Shown here: piece by piece, positions 10,544 through 41,047 of the stretch
Layout of the letters: every line of letters begins with the position of its first letter
Position numbering within the stretch: the stretch's first letter is position 1
Assembly: GCF_001441535.1 (NCBI RefSeq)
Contig: NZ_LMAU01000006.1
Location: 1 to 64,000 of the forward strand
Length of the DNA stretch: 64,000 bases
Direction: 5' to 3'
DNA from: Tsuneonella troitsensis
Lineage (GTDB): Bacteria > Pseudomonadota > Alphaproteobacteria > Sphingomonadales > Sphingomonadaceae
Made by a program: the position numbers and the translations under genes
The notes under the pieces: model-generated
Database searches by the model: none
The model's input: the letters and a program-made list of their open reading frames with translations, nothing else
Told to the model about the DNA's origin: nothing

Positions 10544-10558
10544 AGGCGCGTCCCTGCG

Positions 10559-11530: not shown

Positions 11531-11812
11531 GCCCTATCAGATACGGACCACGGATGAGCGTAAGGTCTCGGAACAAGGTTAACGGCCGGGTTACCGATTT
11601 GGCGAGGCCGGTGACCCACTCTGCCGAAGGGCGAGCAGCGGCTTGCGTTCCAAAGGCACATGCCCTCGCGAGATGGTCCTGGCGAAGAAACCATCGGCCT
11701 ATCCCGTTTGGTTGTAACATGATTGCCTCAGGTTATGAGAAAGTGCAGCGAACCTGTCACACGGCAAAACAACCTGATAATCGGGCCGGATAGCTTTCAA
11801 TGGGGGGAAGTC

Positions 11813-14878: not shown

Positions 14879-14902
14879 TCGCGAACGGTAATGTGAAAAG
14901 CT

Positions 14903-14932
14903 GGCGCGGCGCGGGATATCTCGCGCCGCGCC
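14903..14932 (+). terminator. Probable terminator after the TonB receptor gene
   Basis: A perfect 11-bp inverted repeat (GGCGCGGCGCG at 14903-14913 and its complement at 14922-14932) with an 8-nt loop is followed by CTTTA-like bases. It begins 25 bp after the receptor stop codon. The T-run is short, so termination strength is uncertain. Confidence 0.6.
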
Positions 14933-14955
14933 TTTACCTGTCCTAAGGTCCCGCG

Positions 14956-16485: not shown

Positions 16486-17501
16486 TCGATGAGGTTGCCC
16501 GACGCGCGTTTGCACTGTCTGCCGAGGCGGTCCGGGGCGGTGCGATCCCTGGTGCTGCTTTGGGAGTGGTGACTGTAGCGGGCGAGCGTGCCGTGATTTT
16601 CGACGGTTTTGCGGCGATCGAGCCAGAGCGTGAGGCGTTGACGAGGGGGCACTGGTTCGACCTTGCCTCGCTGACCAAGGTCATCGCCACGACCACAATG
16701 ATCCTCGAAATGTCGGAATTCGGCACTATCGAGCTCGATGAATTCATCACTTCAGCCATGCCGGACCTGCGCCAGTACGACGAAGTCGGCGCGGCCGAGC
16801 GCAGGCTGACATTTCGCGACTGCCTGGCGCATCGCACGCACCTGCCGGCGGTGTTTCCGATCTACACTTACGGCGACGATCCGGACCGGCTTCGTGCGTT
16901 CGTGTTGCAGCGGGAGTGGCCGAAGGGGCCGGCGGTCTATTCGGACCTCAATTTCATCCTGCTCGGCATCGCGATCGAGCGACTGACCGGGGCGAGCCTG
17001 CGCGATTGGCCGCTTAGGGAAGGGTTGTCGTACGGCCCGCCGCCCGGCCCCGCCGTAGCTACGGAACGCTGTTCGTGGCGAGGGCGGGTCATGCAGGGCG
17101 AGGTCCACGACGAGAACTGCTTCGCGATGGGCGGCGCGACGGGTCACGCGGGGCTTTTCGGCACCGTCGACGGCGTGCTCGACTTCGCGCAAGGGCTGCT
17201 CGACGGCACGGGAGCCAGCCCGTTCGTGCGCGGGGCGATCCGCGAGCGCCACGGGGAGGAGCGCACGTTGGGGTGGGAAGCGCGGTTTCGCGGATGGCAG
17301 GGCGGCGATGCGTGCTCGGACCAGACCATCGGCCACACCGGGTTCACCGGCACCGGGTTGTGGATCGATTTCGAACGCGGGCTGGCCTGGACCCTGCTGA
17401 CCAACCGCGTCCATCCCACGCGGCACGTCGACAACGGGATCTTCGAATTGCGCCCGGCGACCGGCGACGCGGTGATCGCCGCGTTCGACGCGCTCAGTTA
17501 G
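16482..17501 (+). CDS. Serine hydrolase of the class C beta-lactamase / PBP fold
   Basis: The product has 339 residues. The beta-lactamase fold motifs are in order: SLTK at 63-66 carries the nucleophile Ser63 and base Lys66, YSDLNF gives the YxN-like tyrosine motif, and IGHTGFTGTG is the KTG-like strand (HTG variant). There is no evident signal peptide, so the enzyme is probably cytoplasmic. That suits processing of peptides delivered by the AmpG-like permease encoded immediately upstream (ATGA overlap). The family includes DD-peptidases, esterases and D-amino-acid amidases; which one applies here cannot be said. Its 3' end overlaps the convergent dacB gene by 8 bp. Confidence 0.85.
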   Translation: MIDEVARRAFALSAEAVRGGAIPGAALGVVTVAGERAVIFDGFAAIEPEREALTRGHWFDLASLTKVIATTTMILEMSEFGTIELDEFITSAMPDLRQYDEVGAAERRLTFRDCLAHRTHLPAVFPIYTYGDDPDRLRAFVLQREWPKGPAVYSDLNFILLGIAIERLTGASLRDWPLREGLSYGPPPGPAVATERCSWRGRVMQGEVHDENCFAMGGATGHAGLFGTVDGVLDFAQGLLDGTGASPFVRGAIRERHGEERTLGWEARFRGWQGGDACSDQTIGHTGFTGTGLWIDFERGLAWTLLTNRVHPTRHVDNGIFELRPATGDAVIAAFDALS

Positions 17502-18942
17502 CTGCCGCGATCGCGAGCAGGGCGCGGTCCATGAACTGGGTCGCGCGCACGGATTCGGGCACGTCGTTGGCGTAGATCGCAAACGTTAGCTCGCGCCCGC
17601 TGGCGGCGATCATGTATCCGGCAAGCGCGTTGGTGGCGTTGAGCGAACCGGTCTTGGCGAAGATGCGCTGGGCGAGCGCCGTCCCGGCAAAACGCCTGCC
17701 CAATGTGCCGTCGATCCCGCCGACGGGCAGGGTCTGCCGCCACTCGCCGCCCCACGGCTGAGCCGCGATCCAGCGCAGCAATCCCGCGGTCGCGCGGGGC
17801 GAAACCCGGTTGTAGGTCGACATGCCGGATCCGTCCGAAAGGGCGACCGCGCCGGGATCGACACCCGCCTGGACCAGCATCGCGGCAACCGCGGCCTGTC
17901 CGTCGCCGATCGAGCAGGTGCCGGAGATACAGCCCACACGCCGCAATAGCAGCTCCGAATAAAGGTTCTGGCTGACCTTGTTCACCGTCCGCAACGTCTC
18001 TCCGAGCGGGGGCGGCTGGAGGACTGCGAGCGAGGGGATGCCGGGCTTGCCGACGGGCGCGGTGTCGCCGCGCGTCTTGGGATCGTCGGTCGGCAGCATG
18101 GGCCGATGGCGGGAGAGCGCGTCGCCCGTCACCTTCACCCCGCGCGCGCGCAACATCTCGACAAGCCGCCACGCGGCGTAGTGAGCCGGGTCGTCGACGC
18201 CGAGCTTCAGCTCTTCAGGCTTGGCATCGGCCCCGATGGTCCCCGTCAGCAGCAGTTCGCGCCCGTTGGGAGCCCGGTCGTATCCTATCTCCGCCTTGTC
18301 GCCCGCCACCGTCGTCGCGAGGTTCCGCACTGTGTAATACGCGGGAAGCGTTACGATCGGCGGCGCGCCGACCGCGCCGGGCGCAACGCTCGCGGTGATC
18401 TCGTTGGCGTCGACCGTCAGCGCCGAAATCCCGGTGCCATAGCGCGTCGGGATGTTGTTCCAGCTCATCCCCGGGCTCCAGCGCTGATCGGGAAAGGCGG
18501 TGTCGTCGCCCACCACGTTGCGGACCCGGCGCGTTTTGGCGGCAACGGCATCGGCCAGGACGGACAGGCAATCGGTCGCGCAGTCCGCCGCCGCCGAAAG
18601 GTGGGCATCGCCGCGCCCTTCGAGGATCACGTCCTGCGCCTTGCCCTTGCCTTCGAGGCGCACCCTGGCGCCGGCCCCTTCGGGTTCCGGCAAAGCGCCT
18701 TGCGTTGCGGCGTGCATCGCTACCGCTGTCGTGAAGATCTTCGTGTTGGAAGCAGGGATGAAGCGCTTGTCGGGATCGACCGTCAGTACTTCGCGCCCAT
18801 CCGCATCTGTCACGATCACGCCCCAGCGGGTGCCCGGTCCCGCTTCGGCAAGGATCGTCGCGACCTCGCGGTCGAGCGGCTCCTGCGCGGCGACGGGAGT
18901 GGAAGCGAGGGCGAGCGGGGCGAGGGCAAGGATCAGACGCAT
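17494..18942 (-). CDS. dacB: D-alanyl-D-alanine carboxypeptidase/endopeptidase, PBP4 (S13) family
   Basis: The product has 482 residues from the ATG at 18942, which gives a signal peptide (about 1-19, PVAAQ). Longer frames upstream lack coding character. Penicillin-binding motifs are present: PASNTK with Ser65 and Lys68, an SxN-type motif within SGMSTYN, and FAKTGSLN as the KTG motif. The long insert between the first two motifs is characteristic of peptidase family S13. DacB is periplasmic, trims stem pentapeptides and cleaves D-Ala-mDAP cross-links, which releases the peptides that the rest of this neighbourhood could recover. The gene is convergent with the serine hydrolase gene (8-bp overlap) and divergent from the amidohydrolase gene at 19078. 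Confidence 0.93.
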   Translation of the reverse strand: MRLILALAPLALASTPVAAQEPLDREVATILAEAGPGTRWGVIVTDADGREVLTVDPDKRFIPASNTKIFTTAVAMHAATQGALPEPEGAGARVRLEGKGKAQDVILEGRGDAHLSAAADCATDCLSVLADAVAAKTRRVRNVVGDDTAFPDQRWSPGMSWNNIPTRYGTGISALTVDANEITASVAPGAVGAPPIVTLPAYYTVRNLATTVAGDKAEIGYDRAPNGRELLLTGTIGADAKPEELKLGVDDPAHYAAWRLVEMLRARGVKVTGDALSRHRPMLPTDDPKTRGDTAPVGKPGIPSLAVLQPPPLGETLRTVNKVSQNLYSELLLRRVGCISGTCSIGDGQAAVAAMLVQAGVDPGAVALSDGSGMSTYNRVSPRATAGLLRWIAAQPWGGEWRQTLPVGGIDGTLGRRFAGTALAQRIFAKTGSLNATNALAGYMIAASGRELTFAIYANDVPESVRATQFMDRALLAIAAAN

Positions 18943-31448: not shown

Positions 31449-31501
31449 AAGATGGTGGGCGCGACAGGGATTGAACCTGTGACCCCACCCGTGTGAAGGG
31501 T
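31449..31501. repeat. attL: 53-bp repeat, displaced 3' half of tRNA-Val
   Basis: This copy is identical to 40969-41021. It contains the CCA end, acceptor 3' strand, T arm, variable loop and the 3' side of the anticodon arm of the minus-strand tRNA-Val, but no 5' half, so it is not a functional tRNA. It is the host 3' fragment left behind by integration. Confidence 0.92.
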
Positions 31502-31637
31502 AGCTTCCCGACGAACGCAGGCGAACGCTCGCGACCTTTGCGCGCCAGTAAAGCACGAAAATCCTTTGCGATTTGGCCATTCCGAGAGAGAAGGAGCGAA
31601 CGAAGGCGACCGAACGCGAACGCTGAAAAACTCGCAA

Positions 31638-31659
31638 AAAGGTCGCTAGAAGGTTCCTT
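31638..31659. other. Candidate integrase arm-type site, left end
   Basis: The sequence AAAGGTCGCTAGAAGGTTCCTT closely matches AAAGGTCCCTTAAAAGGTTCCTT-like bases at 40894-40916 at the other end of the element. Such matched motifs just inside both ends suit integrase or AlpA binding. It overlaps the region just upstream of the integrase RBS, so it could also regulate that gene. Confidence 0.4.
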
Positions 31660-31672
31660 TTGGAGTTTCGCC

Positions 31673-33166
31673 ATGGCCGCGCCGAAGAAGAAGTCCTACC
31701 CCAAGACCTACCTGACAGATGTAGCGATTGAGCGCATCGGCCGCCCTGCCAAGGGCCGAGTGTCGGTCAGCGATGTGGAGACCGGTCTGTTCCTCTGGGT
31801 CAACGCCACCGGCAAGAGGTCGTGGGCGGTCGTGACCAATCAGAAGGGTTCCGACCGCAAGCAGCGCAAGGTGATCGGGCAGTGGCCTGGCGTGCGCGTG
31901 TCGGAAGCTCGGGAGGCCGCGCGCGAGCTTGTCGCGGCGGCGCGGGAGGGCGCGGTCATAAAAGACAGGCTCGCGGAGGAAAAGGCCGCTGCCGAGCGCG
32001 AGGCTGCTGACAAGCAGGCGGGCACCTTCCGCGCCGTGGCGGAAAGCTACGTGGCAGCTATGCGGGCAGGGAAGCTAGTCGGCGGGCGCAAGCGCGCTGT
32101 CACCGCGACAACCGCGACTGCCCGCGAACGGCTGCTTGAGCAAAGGGTGCTGCCGACGCTGGGCCACCACCCTCTTTCCGAGATTACGACGCCTATGGTG
32201 GCGCGGCTCCTTACGCAGTTGGACAAGGCCGGTGGGCCGGTGGACGAAACGCTCAAGGCGATACGCGGCGTGTTCAAGTTCGCCCTGTCGCGCGGGCTGT
32301 TCCACGGCGCATTGCCGACCACGGGCATGACCAACCGCCAGCCGCCGAAGAAGATCACTCGGGCGCTCACGGACGATGAACTGCGGTCGATCTGGCTGGC
32401 GGCTCGCGAACAGGGTTGGCCGTTCGGTTCGGTCATCCGGCTGCTCATGCTGACCGGCCAGCGCAAGAACGAGATTGCCGGGCTGACTTGGGACGAGGTG
32501 GACCTTGAGCGCAAGCTGATTGTGTTGCCGAAGGAGAGGGTGAAGAACCGCAAGGGCGCGCACGAAATCGCCTTGAGCGAGCCGGCCATGCAAGTGCTGG
32601 AAGCGGCAGGGGCGATTTACGACGCGCTGCATCCGCGCAAGGCTGGCGCCCAGCCCGAGCCGCGCAAAGGGCTGGTGTTCCCGAGCGACACTGGCGAGAC
32701 GCCGATCAGCGGCTGGAACAAGCTCAAGGCGGCGCTGGACCGGCGCGTGAAGGGCAACCTCGCTGGCCTCACCGAAGAGGACCATCGGGCAATCCGCGCG
32801 GGCGGCGCGCTGCGAACGGACACGGTTGCGCGCAAAAAGGCGGCGCTGGCGCGGGTGGCGGAAGTGCAAACCGAGGCGTGGCGCATCCACGATCTGCGGC
32901 ACACCTTCATCACTCGCTGCCGAGACGGCGAGGAAAATGCCGAAGGCGAGATTGTTTGGTCAGCGCCGCTCGACGTTCTGCAAGCGGCGGTGAATCATGA
33001 GATCACGGCTGGCGTCACTGCGGCCTACGATCATGGCGACATTCAACGGCGCTACCGGCTCCGCAAGCGGGAGCTGATGGAGTGGTGGGCGCGCAAACTC
33101 ATGTTCATCGTGGGCGAGGCTGAGGCAGCAGACAATGTGGTGCAGATGCCTGCGAGGGCAGGTTAA
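31673..33166 (+). CDS. int: Tyrosine integrase, DUF4102 / P4-type
   Basis: The product has 497 residues from the ATG at 31673, preceded by GGAG; the frame extends upstream through attL but is not expected to be translated. An N-terminal DUF4102 arm-binding domain (about 8-95) and a SAM-like core domain (about 115-215) precede the catalytic domain. Catalytic residues seen: Arg264 in TGQRKNE, His406 and Arg409 in HDLRHT, and Tyr452 in AAYDHGD. The later histidine position is NHE rather than the more usual GH. The enzyme inserts and, with AlpA, excises the element at the tRNA-Val gene. It lies beside attL, at the opposite end from the reconstituted tRNA. Confidence 0.95.
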   Translation: MAAPKKKSYPKTYLTDVAIERIGRPAKGRVSVSDVETGLFLWVNATGKRSWAVVTNQKGSDRKQRKVIGQWPGVRVSEAREAARELVAAAREGAVIKDRLAEEKAAAEREAADKQAGTFRAVAESYVAAMRAGKLVGGRKRAVTATTATARERLLEQRVLPTLGHHPLSEITTPMVARLLTQLDKAGGPVDETLKAIRGVFKFALSRGLFHGALPTTGMTNRQPPKKITRALTDDELRSIWLAAREQGWPFGSVIRLLMLTGQRKNEIAGLTWDEVDLERKLIVLPKERVKNRKGAHEIALSEPAMQVLEAAGAIYDALHPRKAGAQPEPRKGLVFPSDTGETPISGWNKLKAALDRRVKGNLAGLTEEDHRAIRAGGALRTDTVARKKAALARVAEVQTEAWRIHDLRHTFITRCRDGEENAEGEIVWSAPLDVLQAAVNHEITAGVTAAYDHGDIQRRYRLRKRELMEWWARKLMFIVGEAEAADNVVQMPARAG

Positions 33167-33167
33167 A

Positions 33168-33184
33168 AAACGCATTTTGCGTTT
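33168..33184 (+). terminator. Short hairpin after the integrase
   Basis: A 7-bp stem (AAACGCA / TGCGTTT) with a 3-nt loop starts right at the integrase stop codon. It has no clear U-run beyond the stem, so it may be a weak terminator or an RNA-stability hairpin. Confidence 0.4.
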
Positions 33185-33337
33185 CAGGAAAGTTGGCGCA
33201 TAAAGGTTCCGAAGTCGCTCACGGGCGACCGAACAAAACCGACCGCCACAGATAATCGGAACGGGGCTCCCCTGTTCGTCTGTCGCCCAAAAGCAAGCGC
33301 CACGGCGCATTTGGCAGATGGCCGTCTTCTGACAACT

Positions 33338-33353
33338 TGAGGCTCAAGCCTCA
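33338..33353. promoter_or_regulatory. Dyad upstream of alpA, candidate operator
   Basis: A perfect dyad TGAGGCT-CA-AGCCTCA ends 18 bp before the alpA start and just upstream of its AGAAGGA RBS. The position suits autoregulation or a repressor site for the replication operon; the binding protein is not known. Confidence 0.4.
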
Positions 33354-33371
33354 GGCAGAAGGACGTTGCCA

Positions 33372-33686
33372 ATGCCTGCTCGTAAACACCGCACCGGTGA
33401 AGAACTTGAAGCGTGGGAAGCTCGCAAGGCCGCCCATCAGATGCAGATGTTGATCGCGCGGGAGACAGTGAAGTCTCTCACCGGTCACACCCTCCTCCGT
33501 CTCGACGAGGCTGCTGCTGCAATCGGCGTCACGAAGAAGACGCTCCGCGAACTAGAAGCCCAGAAGCTGCCCAACTGGCCGCAGAGGGTGACACTCAGCC
33601 CGAAGGTGACCGGCTACAGATTGAAGGACATTGAGGCGCTGATCGACGGCGGCATGGTTCCGCGCGAAGTGGAGTCGGCCGAATGA
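33372..33686 (+). CDS. AlpA-like DNA-binding regulator / excisionase
   Basis: The product has 104 residues from ATG 33372, which has an AGAAGGA RBS at ideal spacing; the TTG at 33366 is less likely. The MerR/AlpA-type winged helix is at about 43-90: LLRLDEAAAAIGVTKKTLRELE, then a wing with GYRLKDIEALID. In P4-like and PICI elements such proteins activate integrase and replication genes or act as recombination directionality factors. It overlaps the primase gene by ATGA. The charged N-terminal 40 residues are additional to the minimal AlpA domain. Confidence 0.75.
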   Translation: MPARKHRTGEELEAWEARKAAHQMQMLIARETVKSLTGHTLLRLDEAAAAIGVTKKTLRELEAQKLPNWPQRVTLSPKVTGYRLKDIEALIDGGMVPREVESAE

Positions 33687-35812
33687 CCGGCGCTAGCGGA
33701 AGCGAGCCGCTGACCGGGCCACCTTGGGAAGAAGAAGCCCCCGCCTCTGGGGGAGAAGCGGGGGCCGGGGACCATGCCACGGGAACGGCTGGCGAGAGGG
33801 ATTCTGCGCCATCTTCGGATGGATGGAAAGTCTCTTCGGGCGGCGCTCGTGGCTCCTACGAATGGAACGATGATGACCGGCCCCGCTGGGACTTCACCAC
33901 CAAACTTGAGCGCGAGTACGACTACCACCGCGCGGACGGCAGCTATGCCTACACTGCCCTGAAGGGGCGGCGCGAGGACGGCGAAAAGGCTTTCCTCCGA
34001 GGGAGGCGCGTCATTGGCACAGGCGACCTGCAATTCGCACGGGACGAAGGCGAACTCTACAAGTTCCCCGGCATTGAGCATTATCGCAAGGGCACCGGCG
34101 AAGAGCCGGACCTGCTTTATCGGCTGCCCGAGTTGCTCTTGACCATGGACGAGCGGCCCCATGCCCTTGTGTTCATCTGCGAGGGCGAGAAGGATGCGGA
34201 CCGCCTGATCGAGTTGGGCCTGATCGCCACGACGAACCCGAACGGCGCGCTCAACTGGAAGCCCGCGTTGAATACCCACCTTGCAGGGCGGGCGCTCGTC
34301 ATCTTGACCGACAACGACGACAAGGGCCGCAAGCGCACTGCCAAGTTGCTCCCCATGCTGGCCCCGACAGCGAGGAGCGTAAAGGCGGTGGACCTGCCCG
34401 GCCTGCCAGAACGCGGCGACGTCTCCGACTGGCTCGACGCTGGCAACTCGGTTGACGACTTGCTGCGGGAGGTCAGCGCCGCTGCCGGTTCGGGTGTGCA
34501 CCTGACCGACTTCTATGCCTTCATGCCGTCGCACAATTACATCTTCGCCCCGAGTGGCGAAAGTTGGCCGGCGACAAGTGTGAACGCAAAGGTGCTGCCG
34601 ATACCGTTGCTCGATAACCAAGGCGAGCCGGTGAAGGACGATAAGGGTAAACCGAAGCGCATTGCCGCGAACCAATGGCTCGATGCCAATCGTTCAGTCG
34701 AACAGATGACATGGGCACCTGGCGAGCCGCAGGAGATTTCAGACCGGCTGATTTCCGACGGTGGCTGGATTGTTCGTGCCGGATGCTCCGTTTTCAACCT
34801 TTACCGTCCGCCGCTGCCGATCCACGGCGACCCTCAACTGGCAACGCCGTGGCTCGATCACGTCAACGCGGTCTATCCCGCCGACGCGGAACACTTGATC
34901 GCTTGGCTGGCGCATCGCGTCCAGCGCCCCGGCGACAAGATCAACCACGCTATTGTGATGGGCGGCGCTCAGGGCATCGGGAAGGACACCATCCTTGAGC
35001 CGGTGAAGTATGCGGTTGGGCCGTGGAACTTCGCGGAAGTGTCACCGCAGCACTTGCTCGGGCGCTTCAATGGCTTCGTGAAGTCGGTGATCCTGAGGGT
35101 GAGCGAGGCGCGGGATCTTGGCGATGTGGACCGCTTCGCTTTCTACGATCACATGAAAACCTACACCGCCGCGCCGCCAGACGTGTTGCGCGTCGATGAG
35201 AAGTTCCAGCGGGAATACTCCGCCTTCAACGTGTGCGGCGTGGTTATCACCACAAACCACAAGGGCGACGGCCTCTATCTGCCGGAAGATGACCGGCGAC
35301 ACTATGTCGCTTGGTCAGAGGCTGATCGGGAAAGCTTCTCCGAAGGCTACTGGAACAAGCTGCACGGTTGGTATGCCGGTGGCGGCGTCGGCCACGTGGC
35401 AGCCTACCTGCGGACCCTCGATCTTGCCGCGTTCAACGCCAAGGCTCCCCCGCCAAAGACAGACGCGTTCTGGGACATTGTCACCGCGAACAGCGCACCC
35501 GAATCGGCGGAACTGACGGACGCGCTGGAAAAGCTCGCATGGCCGCAGGCGGTGACGCTGGCAGACCTTGTGGAAGCGGCGGAACAGGCATTCGGTGAGT
35601 GGCTGCGCGATCGGCGGAACAGCCGCAAGGTGCCGCACAAGATGGAGGAGTGCGGGTATCGCCCGGTTCGCAATCCGACTGCGAAGGCTGGGCGCTGGAA
35701 GGTCGGCGGCAAGGATATGGTGATCTACACCAAACGCGAGCTCTCCACGCGTGACGCCATTGAGGCTGCTGAAAAGCTGAGCGCGAGGGGCGATGACGAT
35801 GGCCCGATTTAA
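33683..35812 (+). CDS. TOPRIM primase / SF3-type helicase of the satellite
   Basis: The product has 709 residues. A low-complexity Gly/Glu-rich N-terminus (1-50) is followed by a TOPRIM domain: FICEGEKDADRL with Glu167 and, about 45 residues on, VILTDNDDKGRKRT. The C-terminal ATPase (DUF5906/D5-like) has Walker A GGAQGIGKDT at 427-436, a following LRVSEARD acidic motif and VVITTNHKGDGLYLPEDDRR, typical of SF3 helicases that unwind an origin. No separate initiator is encoded. Together with the nearby inverted repeat this indicates autonomous replication after excision. It is co-translated with alpA. Confidence 0.9.
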   Translation: MTGASGSEPLTGPPWEEEAPASGGEAGAGDHATGTAGERDSAPSSDGWKVSSGGARGSYEWNDDDRPRWDFTTKLEREYDYHRADGSYAYTALKGRREDGEKAFLRGRRVIGTGDLQFARDEGELYKFPGIEHYRKGTGEEPDLLYRLPELLLTMDERPHALVFICEGEKDADRLIELGLIATTNPNGALNWKPALNTHLAGRALVILTDNDDKGRKRTAKLLPMLAPTARSVKAVDLPGLPERGDVSDWLDAGNSVDDLLREVSAAAGSGVHLTDFYAFMPSHNYIFAPSGESWPATSVNAKVLPIPLLDNQGEPVKDDKGKPKRIAANQWLDANRSVEQMTWAPGEPQEISDRLISDGGWIVRAGCSVFNLYRPPLPIHGDPQLATPWLDHVNAVYPADAEHLIAWLAHRVQRPGDKINHAIVMGGAQGIGKDTILEPVKYAVGPWNFAEVSPQHLLGRFNGFVKSVILRVSEARDLGDVDRFAFYDHMKTYTAAPPDVLRVDEKFQREYSAFNVCGVVITTNHKGDGLYLPEDDRRHYVAWSEADRESFSEGYWNKLHGWYAGGGVGHVAAYLRTLDLAAFNAKAPPPKTDAFWDIVTANSAPESAELTDALEKLAWPQAVTLADLVEAAEQAFGEWLRDRRNSRKVPHKMEECGYRPVRNPTAKAGRWKVGGKDMVIYTKRELSTRDAIEAAEKLSARGDDDGPI

Positions 35813-35828
35813 CTCCCCAGCGCTGGTA

Positions 35829-35964
35829 GCGCGTGAAGCGCGTGATCGACCATCCCCCTCCTTTTCACTCCCCTCGCGCGCTTTTGAAAAGTTTTTCCAG
35901 AGGGAGAAGGAAGGGGAGGGAAGGTTGGAAAGAGAGGGAATGCAGGATCACGCGCTTCACGCGC
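35829..35964. repeat. Long inverted repeat around a Py/Pu tract: candidate replication origin
   Basis: Perfect 19-bp arms (GCGCGTGAAGCGCGTGATC at 35829-35847 and its complement at 35946-35964) are 98 bp apart. The spacer is strongly biased: pyrimidine-rich at about 35851-35874, a CTTTTGAAAAG palindrome at 35881-35891, then purine-rich to about 35940. It begins 17 bp after the primase stop. Location and structure fit an origin for the adjacent primase-helicase; an alternative is a transcriptional attenuator. Confidence 0.55.
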
Positions 35965-36019
35965 CACACGCGCTGACGCGCCCAAAGCCGGGCACATCCA
36001 ACCTAGAGGAGACCACACC

Positions 36020-36370
36020 ATGATTACCAATCACAAGCAGGCCGTCGCGGCCCGAGAGAAAGAGGCCAAGGCTGTCCTGTCTGCCATGAAGGAGCGGCAC
36101 CCCGGCGCGTTCCCCACGCCGCCGCGCCCGCTCAAGGTCGGCGTGCGCGAGGACCTCATCGCCGCCGGTTGGACGGATGCTGAGGTGAGCACGGCCCTGA
36201 GCTACTACTTGCGGACGCGCGCATACCTTCAGTGCACCTATGCCGAGGGGCAGTTCCGCGTCGGGCTAGACGGGATGCCCGTCGCCCCGGTGCAGGACCG
36301 CGACCGGGAGTGGGCACGCAGGCAAGTCCAGCTAGGCGAATATCATGGCTCCTGGAACACACGCTGGTGA
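36020..36370 (+). CDS. ProQ/FinO-family RNA-binding protein
   Basis: The product has 116 residues with a GAGGAG RBS. The FinO/ProQ domain is recognisable at about 30-100: FPTPPRPLKVGVREDL corresponds to the PLKIGI-DL motif, SYYLRTRAYLQ to the central helix, and GQFRVGLDGMPVAPV to the RVDLDGxPxG motif. The family binds structured RNAs and 3' ends and promotes sense-antisense pairing. In a satellite it could tune copy number, late gene timing or helper interference; no partner RNA is visible. It lies between the inverted repeat and the terminase-like gene. Confidence 0.75.
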   Translation: MITNHKQAVAAREKEAKAVLSAMKERHPGAFPTPPRPLKVGVREDLIAAGWTDAEVSTALSYYLRTRAYLQCTYAEGQFRVGLDGMPVAPVQDRDREWARRQVQLGEYHGSWNTRW

Positions 36371-36543
36371 GCCGCACCCTTTCCCTAGGGCGCGCAGCCC
36401 TTGGCCTCCCTGCACACATCTACGGGCGCTCCCGTGGGTGTCCGGAGGGGGCGGGGCCATTGAAAGTTGAGAACTGTGCAACGCGGTGACCGCCGCCCCT
36501 CACAAAGAGCAACGCAAAGGTTCAAATCCGAGAGGAACACACC

Positions 36544-37008
36544 ATGACGAAACCACGCAAGGCGCGCACCGACAGCGTCGCCAACCTCATCCGACTGGCC
36601 ACCACGGCGAACACTGAAATCGCACCCCCGGCGCACATGGCGATGGAGGCAGAGGTGTGGCCCTTCTTCCATAGCATCGCAGACGAGTTTGCTCGCGCCG
36701 ACTGGACACCGCACCGACTGTCGCTGGCGGTGATGTTGGCCAGAGCGATGGCCAACGTTGAAGAAAATCAGCGTTTGCTGCGCGAGGAAGGCACCGTCGT
36801 CCCCGACGCAAAGGGTGTCCCCCGCGTTAATCCTAGGATGAAGGTTGTCGATGGGCAGCTGAGCCAGGTGCTCGCCATGCGCCGCTCCCTCGCCATGACG
36901 GGCCGGGCGATGGCGGGCGGGACGAACAAAGCCGCGCACCAGCGGGAAGCCAACCGCGCCGCCGAACACCGGCTGCGGGGCAATGGCCGCGACGATCTAT
37001 TAGCTTAA
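36544..37008 (+). CDS. Small terminase subunit-like protein (P27 family)
   Basis: The product has 154 residues. The arrangement resembles phage P27/HK97-type TerS: an N-terminal helical region, a VWPFFHSIADEF segment, DWTPHRLSLAVMLARAMANVEE, LLREEGTVVPDAKGVPRVNP, then a final helix (QVLAMRRSLAMTGRA). The EEGxVV...NP motif is the best marker. Small terminases recognise the pac or cos site; in PICIs they redirect helper packaging to satellite DNA. No large terminase follows, so the ATPase motor would have to come from a helper. Similarity is by pattern only, so the call is tentative. RBS GAGAGGAA is present. Confidence 0.6.
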   Translation: MTKPRKARTDSVANLIRLATTANTEIAPPAHMAMEAEVWPFFHSIADEFARADWTPHRLSLAVMLARAMANVEENQRLLREEGTVVPDAKGVPRVNPRMKVVDGQLSQVLAMRRSLAMTGRAMAGGTNKAAHQREANRAAEHRLRGNGRDDLLA

Positions 37009-37020
37009 AAGGAACATATC

Positions 37021-37275
37021 ATGAACAAATGGAACGAGAAGATGCCAACCGCCGAGCAAATCGAGATGACCCGGCGAGTCGAGACGGCGATTGCGAACGA
37101 GATTAACCTGCTCGCGCGGGAAGGGGTGCCGGTTGCTTGCATCCTCACCGGGCTGGGGCTCTCAATCGCAGACCTTATCACCTGTCAGGCCGAGGCCAGC
37201 GCAGTCGCCCCTTGGTTCGAGAAGCAAGCGATATTGGTCCGCACCCTCCAGGGCGATGCGGACAATCCCAACTAG
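37021..37275 (+). CDS. Hypothetical protein, 84 aa, satellite morphogenesis cluster
   Basis: The family is not recognised. The product has 84 residues and is preceded by AAAAGGAAC, a good RBS, 12 bp after the small terminase stop. It looks mostly helical (EQIEMTRRVETAIANEINLLA, then a hydrophobic VACILTGLGLSIADLI stretch). Placed between small terminase and prohead protease, a role in packaging or head assembly is possible. It is likely a real gene because of RBS, tight spacing and codon use. Confidence 0.6.
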   Translation: MNKWNEKMPTAEQIEMTRRVETAIANEINLLAREGVPVACILTGLGLSIADLITCQAEASAVAPWFEKQAILVRTLQGDADNPN

Positions 37276-37306
37276 CGGAAAATAAACACTTTTCATGGAG
37301 CGCAAG

Positions 37307-37432
37307 ATGGCGCACAATCCCCTCGTTGACGCGCGGCTGTCCGCGTCGAAACACCAATGCTCACGCGGCTGCCCGCGCACATTGGCTGAGAAATGGGCCT
37401 TCCTGCCCAACAGCAATGGTGCGCACGTATGA
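37307..37432 (+). CDS. Small ORF, 41 aa, coupled to the prohead protease
   Basis: The ATG at 37307 has GGAG six bases upstream; an alternative ATG at 37295 would add four residues. The product (MAHNPLVDARL... ending NSNGAHV) is basic with two close cysteines (CSRGC). Its stop overlaps the protease start as ATGA, so ribosomes finishing it would start the protease. It may be a translational-coupling leader or a small functional protein. No family is recognised. Confidence 0.45.
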   Translation: MAHNPLVDARLSASKHQCSRGCPRTLAEKWAFLPNSNGAHV

Positions 37433-38067
37433 ACAGCCAGACACTCCCCTTCCAGATCAAGTCCGTGACTGACTCCGGCGTCGTCGAAGGCGTAATCAGC
37501 GCCTTCGGCCAGGTGGACCGCATTGGCGATACCATCGAGCCGGGCGCTTATTCCAAGTCGATCAAGCGTCTTGAGCAGGACGGGCGCAAGCTCCCCTTGC
37601 TCTATCAGCATGACCCGCACCGCCCCATCGGCGTGTGGACGGAGTTGAGCGAGCGCAGCGATGCCCTCTTCGGGCGGGCCGAACTCGCAATGGAAGTGCG
37701 CGATGCGCAAGAAGCGCACGCACTGGCGCGCAAGGGCGCACTGACCGGGATCAGCATCGGCTACGAAATTGCGCCGGGCGGCTCCCGCAAAGACGGCAAC
37801 CGCCGCATCCTCAGCGACATCGACCTTTGGGAAGCGTCCCTAGTGACGTTCCCCTGCGACACGCACGCGCGCGTCACAGCGGTCAAGGATTTCGCCTGTG
37901 CGCGGGACATTGCCGAATTGCTGCAAGCTGCCGGTCTTTCCGGCCGGCGAGCAAAGGTGGCGGCAGGTGCCGCTTGGAAGGCCATGAACGAAGCCGAAGC
38001 GGACGAAGATGAAGTCCGCGCAATCCTCAACGCATCCGCCGCCCGCATTGCGGCCATAGGAGCATGA
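37429..38067 (+). CDS. HK97-family prohead protease
   Basis: The product has 212 residues from ATG 37429; an in-frame ATG at 37393 would add 12 residues with no better RBS. The S78 prohead protease fold is evident: an N-terminal strand (FQIKSVTDSGVVEGVISAFGQ), catalytic His61 in YQHDPHRPIG, Ser109 in GALTGISIGYE, and a VTFPCDTHARVTAVK segment at the end of the core. Such proteases cleave the scaffold delta domain of the HK97 capsid protein and themselves during head maturation. It overlaps the capsid gene by ATGA. The C-terminal ~50 residues are helical and alanine-rich. Confidence 0.93.
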   Translation: MNSQTLPFQIKSVTDSGVVEGVISAFGQVDRIGDTIEPGAYSKSIKRLEQDGRKLPLLYQHDPHRPIGVWTELSERSDALFGRAELAMEVRDAQEAHALARKGALTGISIGYEIAPGGSRKDGNRRILSDIDLWEASLVTFPCDTHARVTAVKDFACARDIAELLQAAGLSGRRAKVAAGAAWKAMNEAEADEDEVRAILNASAARIAAIGA

Positions 38068-39182
38068 AAATGAACGCACTGACCAAAGACTTCACCGACG
38101 CAGTTGAGCAGCAGTTTAGTAAGCTGAACAGCGACGTTCAGAGCGCCCTCAAAAAGGCCGGCACGGTCGAAGGCATCCTGCAAGAACTTGAGCAGAAAAT
38201 GGCCTGTTCCAGCTATGGCGGCGGTGCTACCGCGCCCGAAAGCTGGGGCCAGCAGGTCGTGGACAGCGATCAGGTTAAATCGCTGGCGGGCATCGCCACC
38301 TCGCAGCCCGGTCGGGTAAAGATCGAACTGAAGGAAATCACCTCGATTGCGTCCAGTGGCGGAAGCCTCGACGGCGGAATGCGTGACTCCGCGATCAACT
38401 CCCTGCCGGTTCGCCAGCCGCGCATCCGTGACTTGCTCAACGTGCTCAACACCACGAGCGGCAACGTCGAATACGTGGACCAGACCACGCGCGACAATCA
38501 GGCGGCTCCGCAGGTGGAAGGTGCGCTCAAAGAAGAGAGCAGCTATGCCTGGGAGTTGAAGAACCTGCCCATCCGCACAATCGCCCACTGGACCAAGGCC
38601 AGCGTACAGATTCTGGCCGACGCGCCGCAGCTTCAGTCGGTGATCGACACTGAACTACGGTATGGCCTCGCGCTGGCGGAAGAGACGCAGCTACTCAACG
38701 GCGACGGCGTAAGCCCGAACCTTGATGGCCTAATCACCAACGCCACCGCCTATGTGGCCGACTTCACTCCGACCACGGAGACTATGATCGACAAAGTCGG
38801 GCTGGGAATGCTGCAAGTGACGCTGGCGGACTACGTGCCCAACGGCGTGGTCATGCACCCTTCGGATTGGATGCGTATTCGCCTGCTGAAGAACACGGAC
38901 GGGGAATATCTGCTGGGCGACCCGCAGTCCAACCCCAACCCACTCCTGTTCGGCCTTCCGGTTGTGGCCACTACGGCCATCGCCAAGGACGCCTTCCTAG
39001 TCGGAGACTTCCGCCGGGCAGCAACCCTCTATGACCGCGAGCAGGCCAACGTGGCCCTTTCCACGGAAGATGGAGACAACTTCGTGAAGAACATGGTGAC
39101 CATCCGCGCTGAGGAACGCTTGGGGCTGGCAGTGAAGAATGCCACCGCCATGAGCCTCGGGGACTTCGGCAACGTCACCTAA
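38064..39182 (+). CDS. HK97-fold phage major capsid protein
   Basis: The product has 372 residues from ATG 38064 (coupled to the protease); ATG 38070 with TAGGAG upstream is also possible. The N-terminal ~50 residues are helical and charged (LTKDFTDAVEQQFSKLNSDV), a short delta/scaffold-like domain, followed by the Phage_capsid family core: IRDLLNVLNTTSGNVEYVDQT, the E-loop region, EETQLLNGDG, and C-terminal GLPVVATTAIAKDAFLVGDF. The scaffold region is shorter than the ~100 residues in HK97. It forms the shell of the particle. No portal or connector gene follows; a strong terminator does. Confidence 0.95.
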   Translation: MKMNALTKDFTDAVEQQFSKLNSDVQSALKKAGTVEGILQELEQKMACSSYGGGATAPESWGQQVVDSDQVKSLAGIATSQPGRVKIELKEITSIASSGGSLDGGMRDSAINSLPVRQPRIRDLLNVLNTTSGNVEYVDQTTRDNQAAPQVEGALKEESSYAWELKNLPIRTIAHWTKASVQILADAPQLQSVIDTELRYGLALAEETQLLNGDGVSPNLDGLITNATAYVADFTPTTETMIDKVGLGMLQVTLADYVPNGVVMHPSDWMRIRLLKNTDGEYLLGDPQSNPNPLLFGLPVVATTAIAKDAFLVGDFRRAATLYDREQANVALSTEDGDNFVKNMVTIRAEERLGLAVKNATAMSLGDFGNVT

Positions 39183-39190
39183 TCGAATTG

Positions 39191-39225
39191 CCGCCGGTCC
39201 CGGTCCCCCATTTGGCGACCGGCGG
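39191..39225 (+). terminator. GC-rich hairpin after the capsid gene
   Basis: A 9-bp stem (CCGCCGGTC at 39191-39199 with its complement at 39217-39225) lies 8 bp past the capsid stop codon. It probably acts with the stronger hairpin 50 bp further on. Confidence 0.5.
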
Positions 39226-39274
39226 TAACTTGGGGAGGCGCTTTCTTGGTTTCGCGCCGCCCTGTTTCGTCGGG

Positions 39275-39316
39275 AAGGCGAGAGCGGTTATTCCCTATGG
39301 CCGCTCTCGCCTTTTC
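39275..39316 (+). terminator. Rho-independent terminator between capsid and Mrr genes
   Basis: A perfect 13-bp stem (AAGGCGAGAGCGG at 39275-39287, complement at 39301-39313) with a 13-nt loop is followed by TTTT. It ends the rightward satellite transcript and separates it from the convergent mrr-like gene, whose stop is at 39321. Confidence 0.8.
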
Positions 39317-39320
39317 CGCA

Positions 39321-40244
39321 TCACCCCTCCACAAAGAAATCCTCGTCAATCCGCTTGACCTTGACTGCGCGGCTGATCCTCACCCCTACGTCATGCTCGA
39401 TCATCAGGTCCGTGAGGCGCACCCCGTCGATCAGGATGATGCGCTGAGGGATTTGCTCGGCATACTGCCGAGCTCCGGAACTGAAAGACGAGGTTGTGAC
39501 AAACACGCCCTTGTTTGCGCCGAACCCGACTAGGCTCCCCACAAACCCCTGCACCTCTGGCCGCTGGACGGAATTTGTCTCCGCATACCGCTTGGCTTGA
39601 ACGTAGATACGATCGAGGCCCAGCCGATCTTCGTCGATCACTCCATCCACCCCATTGTCGCCGCTTTTGCCCAGCTTCAATGCGGCATTCTCATGGCTTC
39701 CGCCGTAGCCCATCGCCACGAGCAAATCGACGATCAGGTGCTCGAAGAAGAGGGGCGAATTGTCGAGAATGCGTTGCAGAAGGTCGCTGCTCAGCGCCGA
39801 GTGAAGAACGGCCTGCGCCGCGTCGATTTGCTCCTCGGGAGTGGCGGGCGATACAGAGGCAGCCGTCGCCACCGGCTTCTCGGATTTAGTCTGCCCGCTC
39901 GCGCTCGCCTGCTGAAACGCGACGAATGCGGGATATGCCTTGAGCGTCTCGTTATCGATCGTCGTCGGGTTCTTAGCCAACATGGCCTGCCCTTCGGTGC
40001 TGGCGCGGAACAAGCCTCGCTTAGGACTTTCGATCAGCCCCGCTTTGCTCATGTAGAACTTGGCCCAGTGAATGCGATTGTGCAGCACGCGTTGGCGATT
40101 GCTGGGCAGCATTTCTTCGCGCTCTTCGTCCGACAGACCGAACTGATCCGCAATTTTCTGCGCAGCTTCGGGCACCCGCATTTCGCCTTGAGCGGCGAGC
40201 CGCAGAACCGGCAACATCAGCGTCTGATAGTCTGGTATAGCCAA
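39321..40244 (-). CDS. Mrr-like restriction endonuclease (type IV)
   Basis: The product has 307 residues from TTG 40244, which has AAGGGGG six bases upstream and starts the family N-terminus (AIPDYQTLMLPVL). The longer frame to 40409 has no family similarity and would cross the divergent promoter region. An Mrr N-terminal winged-helix domain (about 1-85) and a linker rich in Ala, Ser and Thr precede the PD-(D/E)xK-type domain (about 160-290). Its active site is Asp200 in GVDG and Gln216-Ala-Lys218 in VQAKRY. Mrr enzymes cut modified DNA and so restrict incoming phages. As satellite cargo it could protect the host or exclude competitors. It is transcribed against the capsid operon and divergently from the small gene at 40317. 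Confidence 0.87.
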   Translation of the reverse strand: MAIPDYQTLMLPVLRLAAQGEMRVPEAAQKIADQFGLSDEEREEMLPSNRQRVLHNRIHWAKFYMSKAGLIESPKRGLFRASTEGQAMLAKNPTTIDNETLKAYPAFVAFQQASASGQTKSEKPVATAASVSPATPEEQIDAAQAVLHSALSSDLLQRILDNSPLFFEHLIVDLLVAMGYGGSHENAALKLGKSGDNGVDGVIDEDRLGLDRIYVQAKRYAETNSVQRPEVQGFVGSLVGFGANKGVFVTTSSFSSGARQYAEQIPQRIILIDGVRLTDLMIEHDVGVRISRAVKVKRIDEDFFVEG

Positions 40245-40316
40245 GGTATCCCCCTTGTGGGCGGTGTTCTCACACAGCTTCAGGTGTGGCAAGCCTATGG
40301 CAACAGGAGGAAGTCT

Positions 40317-40598
40317 GTGTCGGGAGCCAGAGAAACAGCGATTGGCATAGCCACGGTTCTTGGCTCGAAAAACGCGCCAAACCCGTTCCTGCTGACGTTC
40401 CAAAACCAAGTGCTCGCTGAGGCAGGCGAGATTGTGCGTCTCACCGTTGCGGAGTGTCGGGACGCCGGCATCGCGCTCACCCGGCTGGAATTGGACCGCG
40501 ATCTTTTCGGAGAGCTAGAGGGCAAGGTTGACCTGCCAATTCGCTACTGCCCGGACCTAGCGGCTGCCGTTCGGTTCGTCCGGCCCAGCGAGACCTGA
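40317..40598 (+). CDS. Hypothetical protein, 93 aa, satellite right end
   Basis: The family is not recognised. The GTG start at 40317 has a near-perfect AGGAGG RBS, which is why this short frame was kept and the very long antisense frame around it was not. The product is an alpha/beta-looking acidic protein (FLLTFQNQVLAEAGEIVRLTVAECRDAGIAL). It is divergent from the Mrr-like gene with a 72-bp intergenic region that should hold both promoters. It might be an accessory or modulating partner of the nuclease, but this is guesswork from position. Confidence 0.6.
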   Translation: MSGARETAIGIATVLGSKNAPNPFLLTFQNQVLAEAGEIVRLTVAECRDAGIALTRLELDRDLFGELEGKVDLPIRYCPDLAAAVRFVRPSET

Positions 40599-40616
40599 TT
40601 GCAAGTCGCTTGCAAT
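40598..40616. promoter_or_regulatory. Perfect 19-bp palindrome, candidate operator
   Basis: ATTGCAAG-TCG-CTTGCAAT begins at the last base of the stop codon of the 93-aa gene and lies 28 bp upstream of the start of the next small gene. An AT-rich palindrome of this kind is typical of repressor operators; a short terminator is the alternative, but no T-run follows. Confidence 0.4.
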
Positions 40617-40643
40617 CCGTTCTCCATCTGTTCCAATTGGCAG

Positions 40644-40886
40644 ATGATGATTCGGCCCGACAACAGAGAACTTGAACAGGCGATCTCCATCGCCCTGACC
40701 ACTGCCCCCAACTATGCCCTGCGGGACGCTTTCAGCCCCACCGGCAAGCTGAACCGGCAGGTGGCGATACAAACCCTCACGGCGCGCGTCGTCGCTGCCC
40801 TGCGGCCCTACGAGCTGACGCGGGAGCCGAACGCCTACGAGGTTGGCCGGGGGACGTTGCCGCTGTTTCCGGAGGAAGGTCGCTGA
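40644..40886 (+). CDS. Hypothetical protein, 80 aa, last satellite gene
   Basis: The family is not recognised. ATG 40644 is followed directly by a second ATG (40647). The product (MMIRPDNRELEQAIS...) is helical in its first half, then RQVAIQTLTARVVAALRPYEL, and ends in a proline/glutamate-rich tail. There is no strong RBS. It lies between the 19-bp palindrome and the right-end repeats. It is kept because its codon use resembles the neighbouring satellite genes and no better frame exists. Confidence 0.45.
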   Translation: MMIRPDNRELEQAISIALTTAPNYALRDAFSPTGKLNRQVAIQTLTARVVAALRPYELTREPNAYEVGRGTLPLFPEEGR

Positions 40887-40916
40887 GCGGCGGAAAGGTC
40901 CCTTAAAAGGTTCCTT
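40876..40916. other. Candidate integrase arm-type sites, right end
   Basis: Two related motifs lie here: AAGGTCGCT at 40876-40884, overlapping the last codons of the preceding gene, and AAAGGTCCCTT followed by AAGGTTCCTT ending at 40916. They mirror the motif at 31638-31659 inside the left end. A third AAGGTTCC is at 33203-33210. Confidence 0.4.
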
Positions 40917-40968
40917 GCGCCGATTTCAGCGGGATAGTGGGGCATCTTTTCCGGCCTAAGCCTTTGAA

Positions 40969-41021
40969 AAGATGGTGGGCGCGACAGGGATTGAACCTGT
41001 GACCCCACCCGTGTGAAGGGT
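40969..41021. repeat. attR: 53-bp repeat completing tRNA-Val
   Basis: Identical to 31449-31501. This copy forms the 3' half of the functional tRNA-Val gene, so the element carried in a replacement 3' end when it integrated. Confidence 0.92.
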
Positions 41022-41047
41022 GTGCTCTACCGCTGAGCTACGCGCCC
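40973..41047 (-). tRNA. tRNA-Val (anticodon CAC)
   Basis: This is a full cloverleaf on the minus strand: acceptor GGGCGCG (41041-41047) pairs with CGCGCCC, the D arm contains GCTCAGCGGTAGAGC, the anticodon stem CACCC/GGGTG holds loop TTCACAC with anticodon CAC, and the T arm carries GGTTCAATCC. The CCA end is encoded (40973-40975). It is the integration target of the satellite; the 3' half now comes from the element. Confidence 0.95.

Follow-up and report, generated by a model that had tools for sequence, protein, structure and literature searches.

A probable phage satellite with head-shell genes in Tsuneonella troitsensis and its relatives in several alphaproteobacterial families

A short integrated element of Tsuneonella troitsensis (Sphingomonadaceae) encodes a major capsid protein, a prohead protease and a terminase small subunit (TerS), and raises the question of how an element that encodes parts of a phage head would be packaged and spread. 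It lies at positions 31,449 to 41,021 of the window, by which we mean the whole stretch of 64,000 nucleotides analysed (contig NZ_LMAU01000006.1, positions 1 to 64,000).

Borders and integration site

The initial annotation had placed perfect 53-bp att repeats at the ends of the element, and a 53/53 match was found there. These direct repeats bound 9,520 bp at the 3′ end of a tRNA-Val(cac) gene. A tRNA scan also detected a tRNA-like fragment at 31453-31532; Rfam at gathering threshold recovered the intact tRNA-Val alone. No clean empty site was found among 10 congeners: the right flank and the tRNA were present, and the left-flank gene was absent from the few kb examined past the tRNA. The same tRNA-Val is occupied in two of these congeners by other islands, of 10.3 and 10.9 kb and without a satellite-capsid match, so a size of about 10 kb is not particular to shell carriers. 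The capsid gene was present in one of the 11 genomes of the genus, and no near DNA match to the element was found in phage records. The features are as follows, L106 being an ortholog at the same site.

31449-31501, no strand: distal attachment repeat, duplicating the 3′ portion of tRNA-Val (53/53 identical to 40969-41021)
31673-33166, + strand: tyrosine integrase, Arm-DNA-bind_3 and Phage_integrase (PF00589, 7.9e-13; phrog_1, 1.3e-43)
33372-33686, + strand: AlpA/excisionase-like regulator (phrog_66, 3.8e-7)
33683-35812, + strand: primase-helicase, TOPRIM part and DUF5906 (PF19263, 3.9e-12; PHROG primases)
35813-36019, no strand: candidate replication origin, with an AT-rich core between two sets of iterons
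36020-36370, + strand: ProQ/FinO-family protein (PF04352, 1.1e-16)
36461-36530, no strand: candidate cos/pac-like packaging site on the upstream side of terS (similar noncoding block in L106)
36544-37008, + strand: TerS (phrog_5601, 2.3e-32)
37021-37275, + strand: orf84, signature small three-helix protein of 84 aa (satellite-family profile)
37429-38067, + strand: prohead maturation protease, S78 (PF04586, 1.2e-20)
38064-39182, + strand: HK97-fold major capsid protein with delta-like N-terminal domain (PF05065, 1.5e-52)
39262-39330, + strand: terminator-like hairpin after the capsid gene, placed at 39271-39320 within this stretch, short U-rich tail (strong hairpin, z -7.2)
39321-40262, - strand: Mrr-type (type IV, methyl-directed) restriction endonuclease, defence cargo (PF04471, 1.8e-34; PADLOC mREase_IV, 3.7e-105; start codon uncertain)
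40317-40598, + strand: small ORF, 93 aa, GTG start (no Pfam match)
40644-40886, + strand: orf80, the ORF nearest the right att (also present in L106, 74%)
40969-41021, no strand: tRNA-proximal attachment repeat within the intact tRNA-Val (repeat comparison)
40973-41047, - strand: tRNA-Val(cac), intact, integration site (tRNA and Rfam scans)

Gene content

All core genes lie on the + strand, with the integrase at the left end, and the Mrr cargo is the sole minus-strand gene. Profiles from Pfam and PHROGs recovered the integrase, AlpA and TOPRIM primase named in the initial annotation (the last as TOPRIM/DUF5906), as well as its HK97 protease and capsid; the ATGA overlaps it described occur between alpA and primase (33683) and between protease and capsid (38064). 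Integrase and AlpA-like protein are each 71% identical to their L106 counterparts, and relatives of the primase were found at 69% (G299), 62% (G339), 65% (G168) and 49% (G308). The candidate origin carries AGCGCGTGA twice at 35828-35845 and inverted twice at 35948-35965, with the AT-rich core (35881-35898) between them. A comparable pair of iteron sets was seen in 0 of 1000 first-order Markov shuffles, and L064, another relative, preserves the layout with a different iteron sequence. The iteron origin, the ProQ/FinO gene, orf84, the Mrr-type gene and the two small right-end ORFs are absent from the initial annotation.

The closest phage relatives of TerS are those of Rhizobium/Sinorhizobium phages 16-3 and AP-16-3 (43-44%). 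Its earlier description as a P27-like TerS stands for TerS, while the P27-like part is weak (PF05119 at E=0.0087, under its cut-off). The noncoding block at 36461-36530 occupies the position relative to terS that the cos end occupies in phage 16-3, and is a candidate only for a cos-like packaging site. In the protease, H61 and S109 are invariant in nine of nine aligned sequences. The capsid family profile aligns to residues 17-382 of HK97 gp5 (3qpr; 1.4e-100), nearly full length and with the delta domain included; an AlphaFold model of the capsid (mean pLDDT 35) was set aside. The terminator proposed after this gene corresponds to the strong hairpin with its U-rich tail, although it was missed by a simple terminator scan limited to loops of 3-8.

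Between TerS and the protease, where TerL and portal would be, lies orf84. It had no Pfam or PHROG match at E<=0.01, and its profile matches were confined to satellite modules (129 loci examined); capsid, TerS and integrase of the same element have phage relatives. Its AF2 model has three helices (mean pLDDT 77.6), and no PDB structure matched the predicted fold at E<=0.001. Sequence-profile matches to PDB (best 1.7e-10), among which designed helical proteins ranked first, were dismissed as composition matches.

Distribution in Alphaproteobacteria

Sixteen elements could be delimited, 14 integrated in tRNA genes (9,315-11,801 bp, window element included) and two embedded in prophages. Integrase and capsid were present in all 16, and neither TerL nor portal was detected within their borders. 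A Pfam scan of the 29 ORFs of at least 300 aa from these elements that were of replication type or had no other assignment gave 25 families, among them no TerL and no portal; the PHROG scan of 116 ORFs (from 160 candidates) gives 25 of 137 families, so no statement of absence is drawn from it. It had been proposed from the first sequence that recurrence would support a satellite and that relatives with TerL or portal at the same place would indicate a deletion remnant. The ~10-kb tRNA-integrated design was found repeatedly, in several alphaproteobacterial families, and no such genes were detected inside the borders of the relatives examined.

A protease accompanies the capsid in nine of the 14 tRNA elements (window element and eight others) and was not detected in the other five. 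TerS was identified in four (window element, L106, L068 and L072), small ORFs not all having been scanned singly. The shell module is thus graded across the family: the capsid is often joined by a protease and in some members by TerS, HNH or a tape measure. The integrase is opposite in orientation to the capsid in L051, L071 and L080. By eye, L072 has an apparent transposon insertion in its replication region and L073 is a lone capsid with integrase. In L106, integrase, AlpA, TerS, orf84, protease, capsid and orf80 are kept, while primase, ProQ and cargo are exchanged; the ProQ/FinO gene has no match there and a different ORF takes its place. Estimates of dN/dS were ~0.17 for capsid, 0.20 for integrase and 0.17 for orf84. 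Most satellite capsids form one clade, separate from prophage capsids.

Defence genes adjoin the capsid in the window element, L064 and L080. Across the family they comprise type IV restriction, DRT and SIR2-like genes, and members may therefore move anti-phage immunity.

Candidate helper phages

The two embedded elements interrupt prophage head genes, the portal gene in L118 and the capsid gene in L110. Joining the flanks across 11-bp repeats restores the interrupted ORF in both, which points to HK97-type helpers; on this sequence evidence the helpers are likely HK97-type phages. The absence of TerL and portal noted in the initial annotation extends to the host genome, where neither TerL_ATPase (PF03354) nor Phage_portal (PF04860), the two families searched genome-wide, had a match; there is thus no resident HK97-type helper of those two families. 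No connector gene was recognised among the genes annotated by Pfam or PHROGs in the window element.

Comparison with known satellites

Classical PICIs had been said to carry no complete capsid gene. This is contradicted by the account in PMC10111431, in which 21 of 29 reference Gram-negative PICIs have a major capsid gene, and capsid homologs are described in EcCICFT073, PmCI172 and SaPIbov5 (PMC6092414). Because such genes are already reported in Gram-negative PICIs, the window element is a variant of known satellites. The suggestion of an intermediate or new design holds in that shell genes occur without a detected motor or portal gene; PICIs with capsid are known, and TerS, protease and capsid together are one point on a graded series.

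Gram-negative PICIs as described in PMC6092414 share the gene order integrase, AlpA and primase, followed by an origin in which two sets of iterons flank an AT-rich core, as well as rightward transcription, a size of ~10-20 kb, a frequent capsid homolog, sometimes TerS, and accessory cargo. The window element has its integrase at the left, rightward transcription, an AlpA-type regulator, a primase and the origin anatomy 3′ of it. Unlike the examples described there, which are from Gammaproteobacteria only, it belongs to Alphaproteobacteria and has an HK97-type protease in the capsid operon with orf84 before them; some alphaproteobacterial members also carry a tape measure or an inverted integrase. 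The element is best labelled an alphaproteobacterial form of the Gram-negative PICIs, one whose shell module is graded.

The helper-embedded HE-PICI 11capE (PMC10111431) sits inside a prophage late gene and has its own capsid gene, as do L110 and L118. The window copy differs in lying in a tRNA gene, in its HK97-type rather than lambda E-type capsid and in the added protease. SaPIbov5 Ccm is likewise a satellite-encoded capsid homolog; it redirects capsid size (PMC6092414), whereas the window capsid has a dedicated protease. The head operon of Rhizobium phage 16-3 (NC_011103) shares a TerS 43% identical and the order TerS, then protease and capsid, but has TerL and portal where the satellite has orf84. 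A P4-like satellite was considered an unlikely class for the window element: P4 is not known to have a capsid gene of its own, and the window element has one. P4-like satellites use Sid, a capsid-size factor directed at the capsid of the helper; Pfam and PHROGs gave no Sid-like match in the element, and three small ORFs match nothing.

Proposed mechanism and alternatives

We consider it probable that the window element is an integrated satellite of Gram-negative-PICI-like layout, which selects its DNA and forms its head shell with products of its own genes and takes everything else from a helper. Judged from its genes it likely builds its own shell, and we infer that it is packaged. A helper phage would turn the element on, integrase and AlpA-like factor would excise it at the 53-bp att, and the primase-helicase would fire the origin whose anatomy is given above. 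The TerS-orf84-protease-capsid operon would then yield a small procapsid in which, by analogy with HK97, the capsid N-terminal domain would act as scaffold and be removed by the protease. TerS would select a site near terS and load helper TerL onto the helper portal, and helper connectors and tail would complete the particle; such borrowing is suggested because TerL and portal are consistently absent and two relatives are embedded in prophage head genes. The particle would deliver the element for re-integration in tRNA-Val, and the Mrr cargo, in which the restriction domain is recognised, may protect the cell from phages with modified DNA.

It is unlikely, in our estimate, that the capsid protein is not the sole shell builder and instead co-assembles with or redirects the helper capsid into small heads, blocking the helper as SaPIbov5 Ccm does. 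Ccm and PmCI172 provide precedents (PMC6092414), and the five tRNA elements with capsid and no detected protease would fit. Mixing is conceivable since satellite and host-prophage capsids are 51% (L110) and 49% (L118) identical. However, a mere co-assembly factor needs no protease, which the window element and eight others possess, and the capsid family aligns with nearly the whole of gp5, delta domain included. Still less probable is that capsid and protease serve as a reserve or were passively captured and are not essential, which is how c1499 of EcCICFT073 appeared: deletion of that capsid gene left transfer unaffected (PMC6092414; PMC10111431), and captured late genes occur in HE-PICIs (PMC10111431). 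Against this, the capsid dN/dS is as low as that of the integrase, the gene is retained in L106 while primase and cargo were swapped, and the single satellite clade stands apart from prophage capsids.

That the element is a prophage in decay, with TerL, portal and tail lost, is very improbable, and we reject this reading. The head operon of phage 16-3, with its complete order TerS-TerL-portal-protease-capsid, is one from which the module could have been cut, and L072 and L073 look damaged; but the ORFs are intact, the att is perfect, selection is purifying, orf84 takes the TerL-portal place, and none of the 14 tRNA-delimited elements has a detected TerL or portal. The initial view that decay was less likely is borne out by the 16 recurrent elements, the capsid dN/dS and the retention in L106. 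A full capsid-forming PICI (cf-PICI) can be ruled out with even greater assurance. Capsid, protease and TerS are encoded in a small integrated element, as in cf-PICIs, but the definition in PMC10690885 also requires their own portal, connectors and TerL, of which the window element has no detected TerL or portal and no recognised connector.

Returning to a satellite with its own shell, we tentatively suggest a broader reading for the family: Alphaproteobacteria may harbour a widespread class of shell-only satellites, each of which would assemble a small HK97 shell of its own, perhaps T=3, on a helper portal. TerS would drive the helper motor, orf84 would stand in for portal and TerL as a factor dedicated to assembly or to adapting the parts, and members with a tape measure may set their own tail length. 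HK97 holds a 39.7 kb genome in a T=7 shell; simple arithmetic from these values, with volume as T^1.5, gives a T=3 capacity of ~11 kb.

No earlier description of alphaproteobacterial capsid satellites was found in the open-access literature searched, and no PICI from the host class appeared in the 2018 survey of Gram-negative PICIs. Such elements would bridge PICIs that take over whole heads and cf-PICIs that take over tails only. The relatives embedded in prophage portal and capsid genes indicate the likely helper type, orf84 may serve as a marker gene for counting many such satellites, and the fit of one element's shell to another's portal and motor becomes testable.

Structure of the element

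The element spanned 9,520 bp between identical 53-bp repeats (31449-31501 and 40969-41021). The right repeat formed the 3′ portion of a minus-strand tRNA-Val(cac) gene that is itself intact; the left one leaves a tRNA-like fragment.

Gene order of the window element, with strand.
+ integrase
+ AlpA-like regulator
+ primase-helicase
+ iteron origin
+ ProQ/FinO-family gene
+ TerS
+ orf84, an 84-aa signature small protein (37021-37275)
+ S78 prohead protease
+ HK97 capsid
+ terminator-like hairpin
− Mrr-type restriction gene, after the hairpin
+ two small ORFs, at the right end

A genome-wide search of the host yielded 0 matches to PF03354 (TerL_ATPase) and 0 to PF04860 (portal). In the candidate origin, 3′ of the primase, a pair of AGCGCGTGA iterons lay on one side of an AT-rich core and a pair of inverted copies on the other, and this iteron-pair arrangement arose in 0 of 1000 first-order Markov shuffles. 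The related locus L059 (L-numbers denote regions of other genomes or public viral contigs) had the same iterons. L064 shared this layout and the TTTTGAAAAGTTTT core, with a different, AGCGCTAG-type iteron. The two halves have thus changed in step, as those of a functional origin should. The origin region of L068 differed from this arrangement. The ProQ/FinO-family RNA-binding protein gene (36020-36370) adjoins the origin.

Recurrence

The capsid search matched 26 of 396 genomes in the order sample (only the stronger matches among these were inspected), 7 of 385 in the class sample and 1 of 11 in the genus, namely the window's own. It also found 10 loci in one-per-species named genomes and 17 in viral contigs, where a further search kept 80 of 126 relatives. 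Primase matches were present in 45 of the 396 order-sample genomes.

Twelve of 20 fetched regions carried TerL and portal beside the capsid and were ordinary prophages; six had the capsid and neither gene, L069 alone had TerL only with a capsid fragment, and L067 lacked a matching capsid. Across 48 loci, local profiles detected both TerL and portal in 29 (L082 being a duplicate of L076, and 12 of the 29 being training rows that match by construction). L069, another training row, had TerL alone, and the remaining 18 had neither. These 18 include duplicates L070 (of L052) and L081 (of L072), capsid fragments L079 and L096, L067, and L073, with a marginal TerL match outside its capsid region. Among 78 new viral contigs a missing TerL or portal is uninformative, since many are short or fragmented close to the capsid, and viral contigs were counted only if both element ends were present.

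Three of these loci had individual features. L069 (7270-10711) is prophage-like, with HNH, TerS, TerL, about the last 60 capsid residues and then a tape-measure piece, and reads as an internal deletion. L067 (1470-16398) is an island of 14.9 kb at tRNA-Thr whose primase is 65% identical; by eye it also has iteron-like repeats and a terminase-like 505-aa ORF. In Mesorhizobium tianshanense, L073 (9926-15555) has a capsid gene standing alone, with a metH-like gene and an integrase nearby, perhaps a satellite remnant.

The initial annotation proposed that a recurrent, same-order, tRNA-integrated element of about 10 kb would support such a satellite; we delimited 14 capsid elements of 9,315-11,801 bp, each by an exact repeat of 17-53 bp at a tRNA 3′ end.

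Delimited tRNA-integrated elements. Lengths are differences between repeat starts.
window, 9,520 bp, tRNA-Val
L050, 9,315 bp, tRNA-Asn
L051, 10,226 bp, tRNA-Gln
L052, 10,002 bp, tRNA-Lys, Allopontixanthobacter sediminis (via its duplicate L070)
L059, 10,358 bp, tRNA-Lys
L064, 11,309 bp, tRNA-Ser
L068, 10,773 bp, tRNA-Ser
L071, 10,668 bp, tRNA-Thr, Sphingomonas guangdongensis
L072, 11,801 bp, tRNA-Arg, Methylobacterium sp. WSM2598
L075, 9,497 bp, tRNA-Glu, Haematobacter
L080, 10,767 bp, tRNA-Met, viral contig
L103, 10,497 bp, tRNA-Ser, another family of the class
L106, 10,165 bp, tRNA-Val, viral contig
L108, 10,943 bp, tRNA-Gln, viral contig

The alternative, that relatives carry TerL and portal at the same place and the window copy is a deletion remnant, found no counterpart inside these elements: local profiles for the two genes were positive in 0 of 14. 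Together with two elements embedded in prophages (L110, L118), the set held 75 ORFs of at least 300 aa, mostly integrase, primase, capsid or antisense ORFs; a Pfam scan of 29 such ORFs (unassigned, replication-type or tail-type; 25 families) included no TerL or portal. Integrase was identified in all 16. L074, L107, L109, L111 and L116 resemble satellites and were left undelimited, several running off contig ends. The replication region of L072 appeared by eye to be interrupted by a transposon.

A same-site ortholog

The 10,364-bp public viral contig L106 has an element integrated at this tRNA-Val(cac) as well, delimited by a 51-bp repeat. Identity to the window was 71% for integrase and AlpA, 55% for TerS, 75% for orf84, 54% for protease, 75% for capsid and 74% for orf80, the last ORF before the att repeat. 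The L106 primase is of the DUF5906 kind and matches only sister primases, at 23-27%; the window ProQ gene had no match in L106, where a different ORF takes its place, and an unrelated 359-aa ORF occupies the Mrr slot. Cargo and replication genes have therefore been exchanged and the packaging-shell block kept. Nei-Gojobori dN/dS was 0.17 for capsid, 0.20 for integrase, 0.17 for orf84, 0.10 for AlpA, 0.28 for orf80, 0.41 for protease and 0.50 for TerS, rough values because dS was 0.76-2.4. Third-position change far exceeded first- and second-position change in capsid, integrase, AlpA and orf84. In the prohead protease, the His and Ser that we take to be the catalytic pair were invariant in 9 of 9 aligned sequences.

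A graded shell module

The protease was detected in nine of the 14 elements (window, L052, L071, L072, L075, L080, L103, L106, L108) and undetected in L050, L051, L059, L064 and L068; the L068 capsid was recognised by Pfam (3.6e-72). TerS was identified in four (window, L106, L068, L072), by a scan that took only some of the small ORFs singly, and also in the undelimited L074. HNH genes occurred in L050 and L051. Tape-measure genes were found in three tRNA-integrated elements and in L118, and satellites possessing one may set their own tail length.

Tape measure proteins.
L052, 6212-9703, 671 aa, with a weakly tail-spike-like protein
L103, 6263-8758, 831 aa
L108, 6272-8281, 669 aa
L118, 11991-14711, 906 aa

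The window copy of orf84 had no Pfam or PHROG match. Where found, orf84 lay upstream of the capsid, mostly immediately before the protease, a position that suggests a shell-assembly or adaptor factor. Across 129 loci its profile recovered the 11 training elements, duplicate L070 and seven new loci (L074, L107, L108, L109, L110, L111, L116). Only L110 among the matched loci had both TerL and portal, and its match lay inside the embedded satellite. L072, L103, L073 and L118 (0.0016, downstream of the capsid) fell above the E<0.001 cut-off.

The window TerS shared 43% identity with its counterpart in Rhizobium phage 16-3, which has annotated cohesive ends and the gene order TerS-TerL-portal-protease-capsid. 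The noncoding block upstream of terS, similar in the window and L106, is a candidate cos or pac site.

In a 44-row capsid tree the window grouped with L050, L051 and L052 (100/99), within an 11-row clade (98/99) of nine satellites, the lone L073 and L097. The last was first labelled prophage by default and later recognised as the TerL-less L103 element, and label counts predate this relabelling. L059/L064 and L068, the latter on a very long branch, fell outside the clade; satellite capsids may therefore have arisen more than once.

Cargo and embedded relatives

PADLOC identified mREase_IV beside the window capsid (3.7e-105) and Hydrolase and Hydrolase-TM candidates after the L080 capsid (11068-12638). 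L064 (3468-7622) had a Drt6/Drt4-type reverse transcriptase (3.5e-153) and, on the capsid's other side, a weak SIR2-like gene (8.8e-7). No PADLOC match came from those ORFs of L059, L068 and L106 that were searched. Two of 10 congeners had a different island in the same tRNA-Val (L196, 1414-11831; L197, 1019-11960), measuring 10.3 and 10.9 kb, with no match to satellite capsids. One of these encodes a different TerS (phrog_4044) along with integrase and primase; the other encodes a 1239-aa protein, restriction-modification by eye.

In the viral contig L118, an element with protease, capsid (51% to the window's) and tape measure (7120-17985) interrupts a prophage portal gene, with portal-profile positions 56-312 and 307-431 falling on opposite sides of it. 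Joining at the longest repeat common to the two searched stretches, 11 bp (7120/17975; element 10,855 bp), gave a single 414-codon open frame with a portal match of 2e-194; joins at two 9-bp repeats did not restore the frame. The L110 element (5532-15626), which has primase, orf84, protease, capsid and integrase, interrupts a prophage capsid gene at its 3′ end. Its 11-bp boundary repeat (5532/15616; element 10,084 bp) was chosen as lying within the gene and beside the integrase, and a 14-bp repeat (6054/15956) and another 11-bp repeat were set aside. After joining, the prophage capsid lengthened from 401 to 421 aa and ended in the C terminus seen in its prophage relatives. In both prophages, TerL, portal, protease and capsid are of the HK97 type, and satellite and host-prophage capsids were 51% (L110) and 49% (L118) identical. 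These insertions resemble the helper-embedded PICIs (phage-inducible island-type satellites) of E. coli, as described in PMC10111431. They point to HK97-type helpers, the two prophages being putative mobilisers only.

Relationship to known satellites

In layout and origin the window element resembles Gram-negative PICIs, whose origins likewise have two iteron sets around an AT-rich core, according to PMC6092414. The initial annotation held that classical PICIs carry no complete capsid gene. This is contradicted by PMC10111431, in which 21 of 29 reference Gram-negative PICIs carry one, said to be dispensable for transfer (PMC10111431; PMC6092414). PMC10690885 defines capsid-forming PICIs as encoding capsid, protease, portal, connectors, TerL, TerS and HNH; unlike these, the window element has no portal or TerL. 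The main uncertainty concerns the shell, which may be built from the satellite capsid alone or with the helper's capsid protein, or the gene may be dispensable. Given the PICI-like layout and origin, the capsid precedent and the missing portal and TerL, we class the element as a Gram-negative-PICI-like satellite of alphaproteobacteria whose head module is partial and graded.
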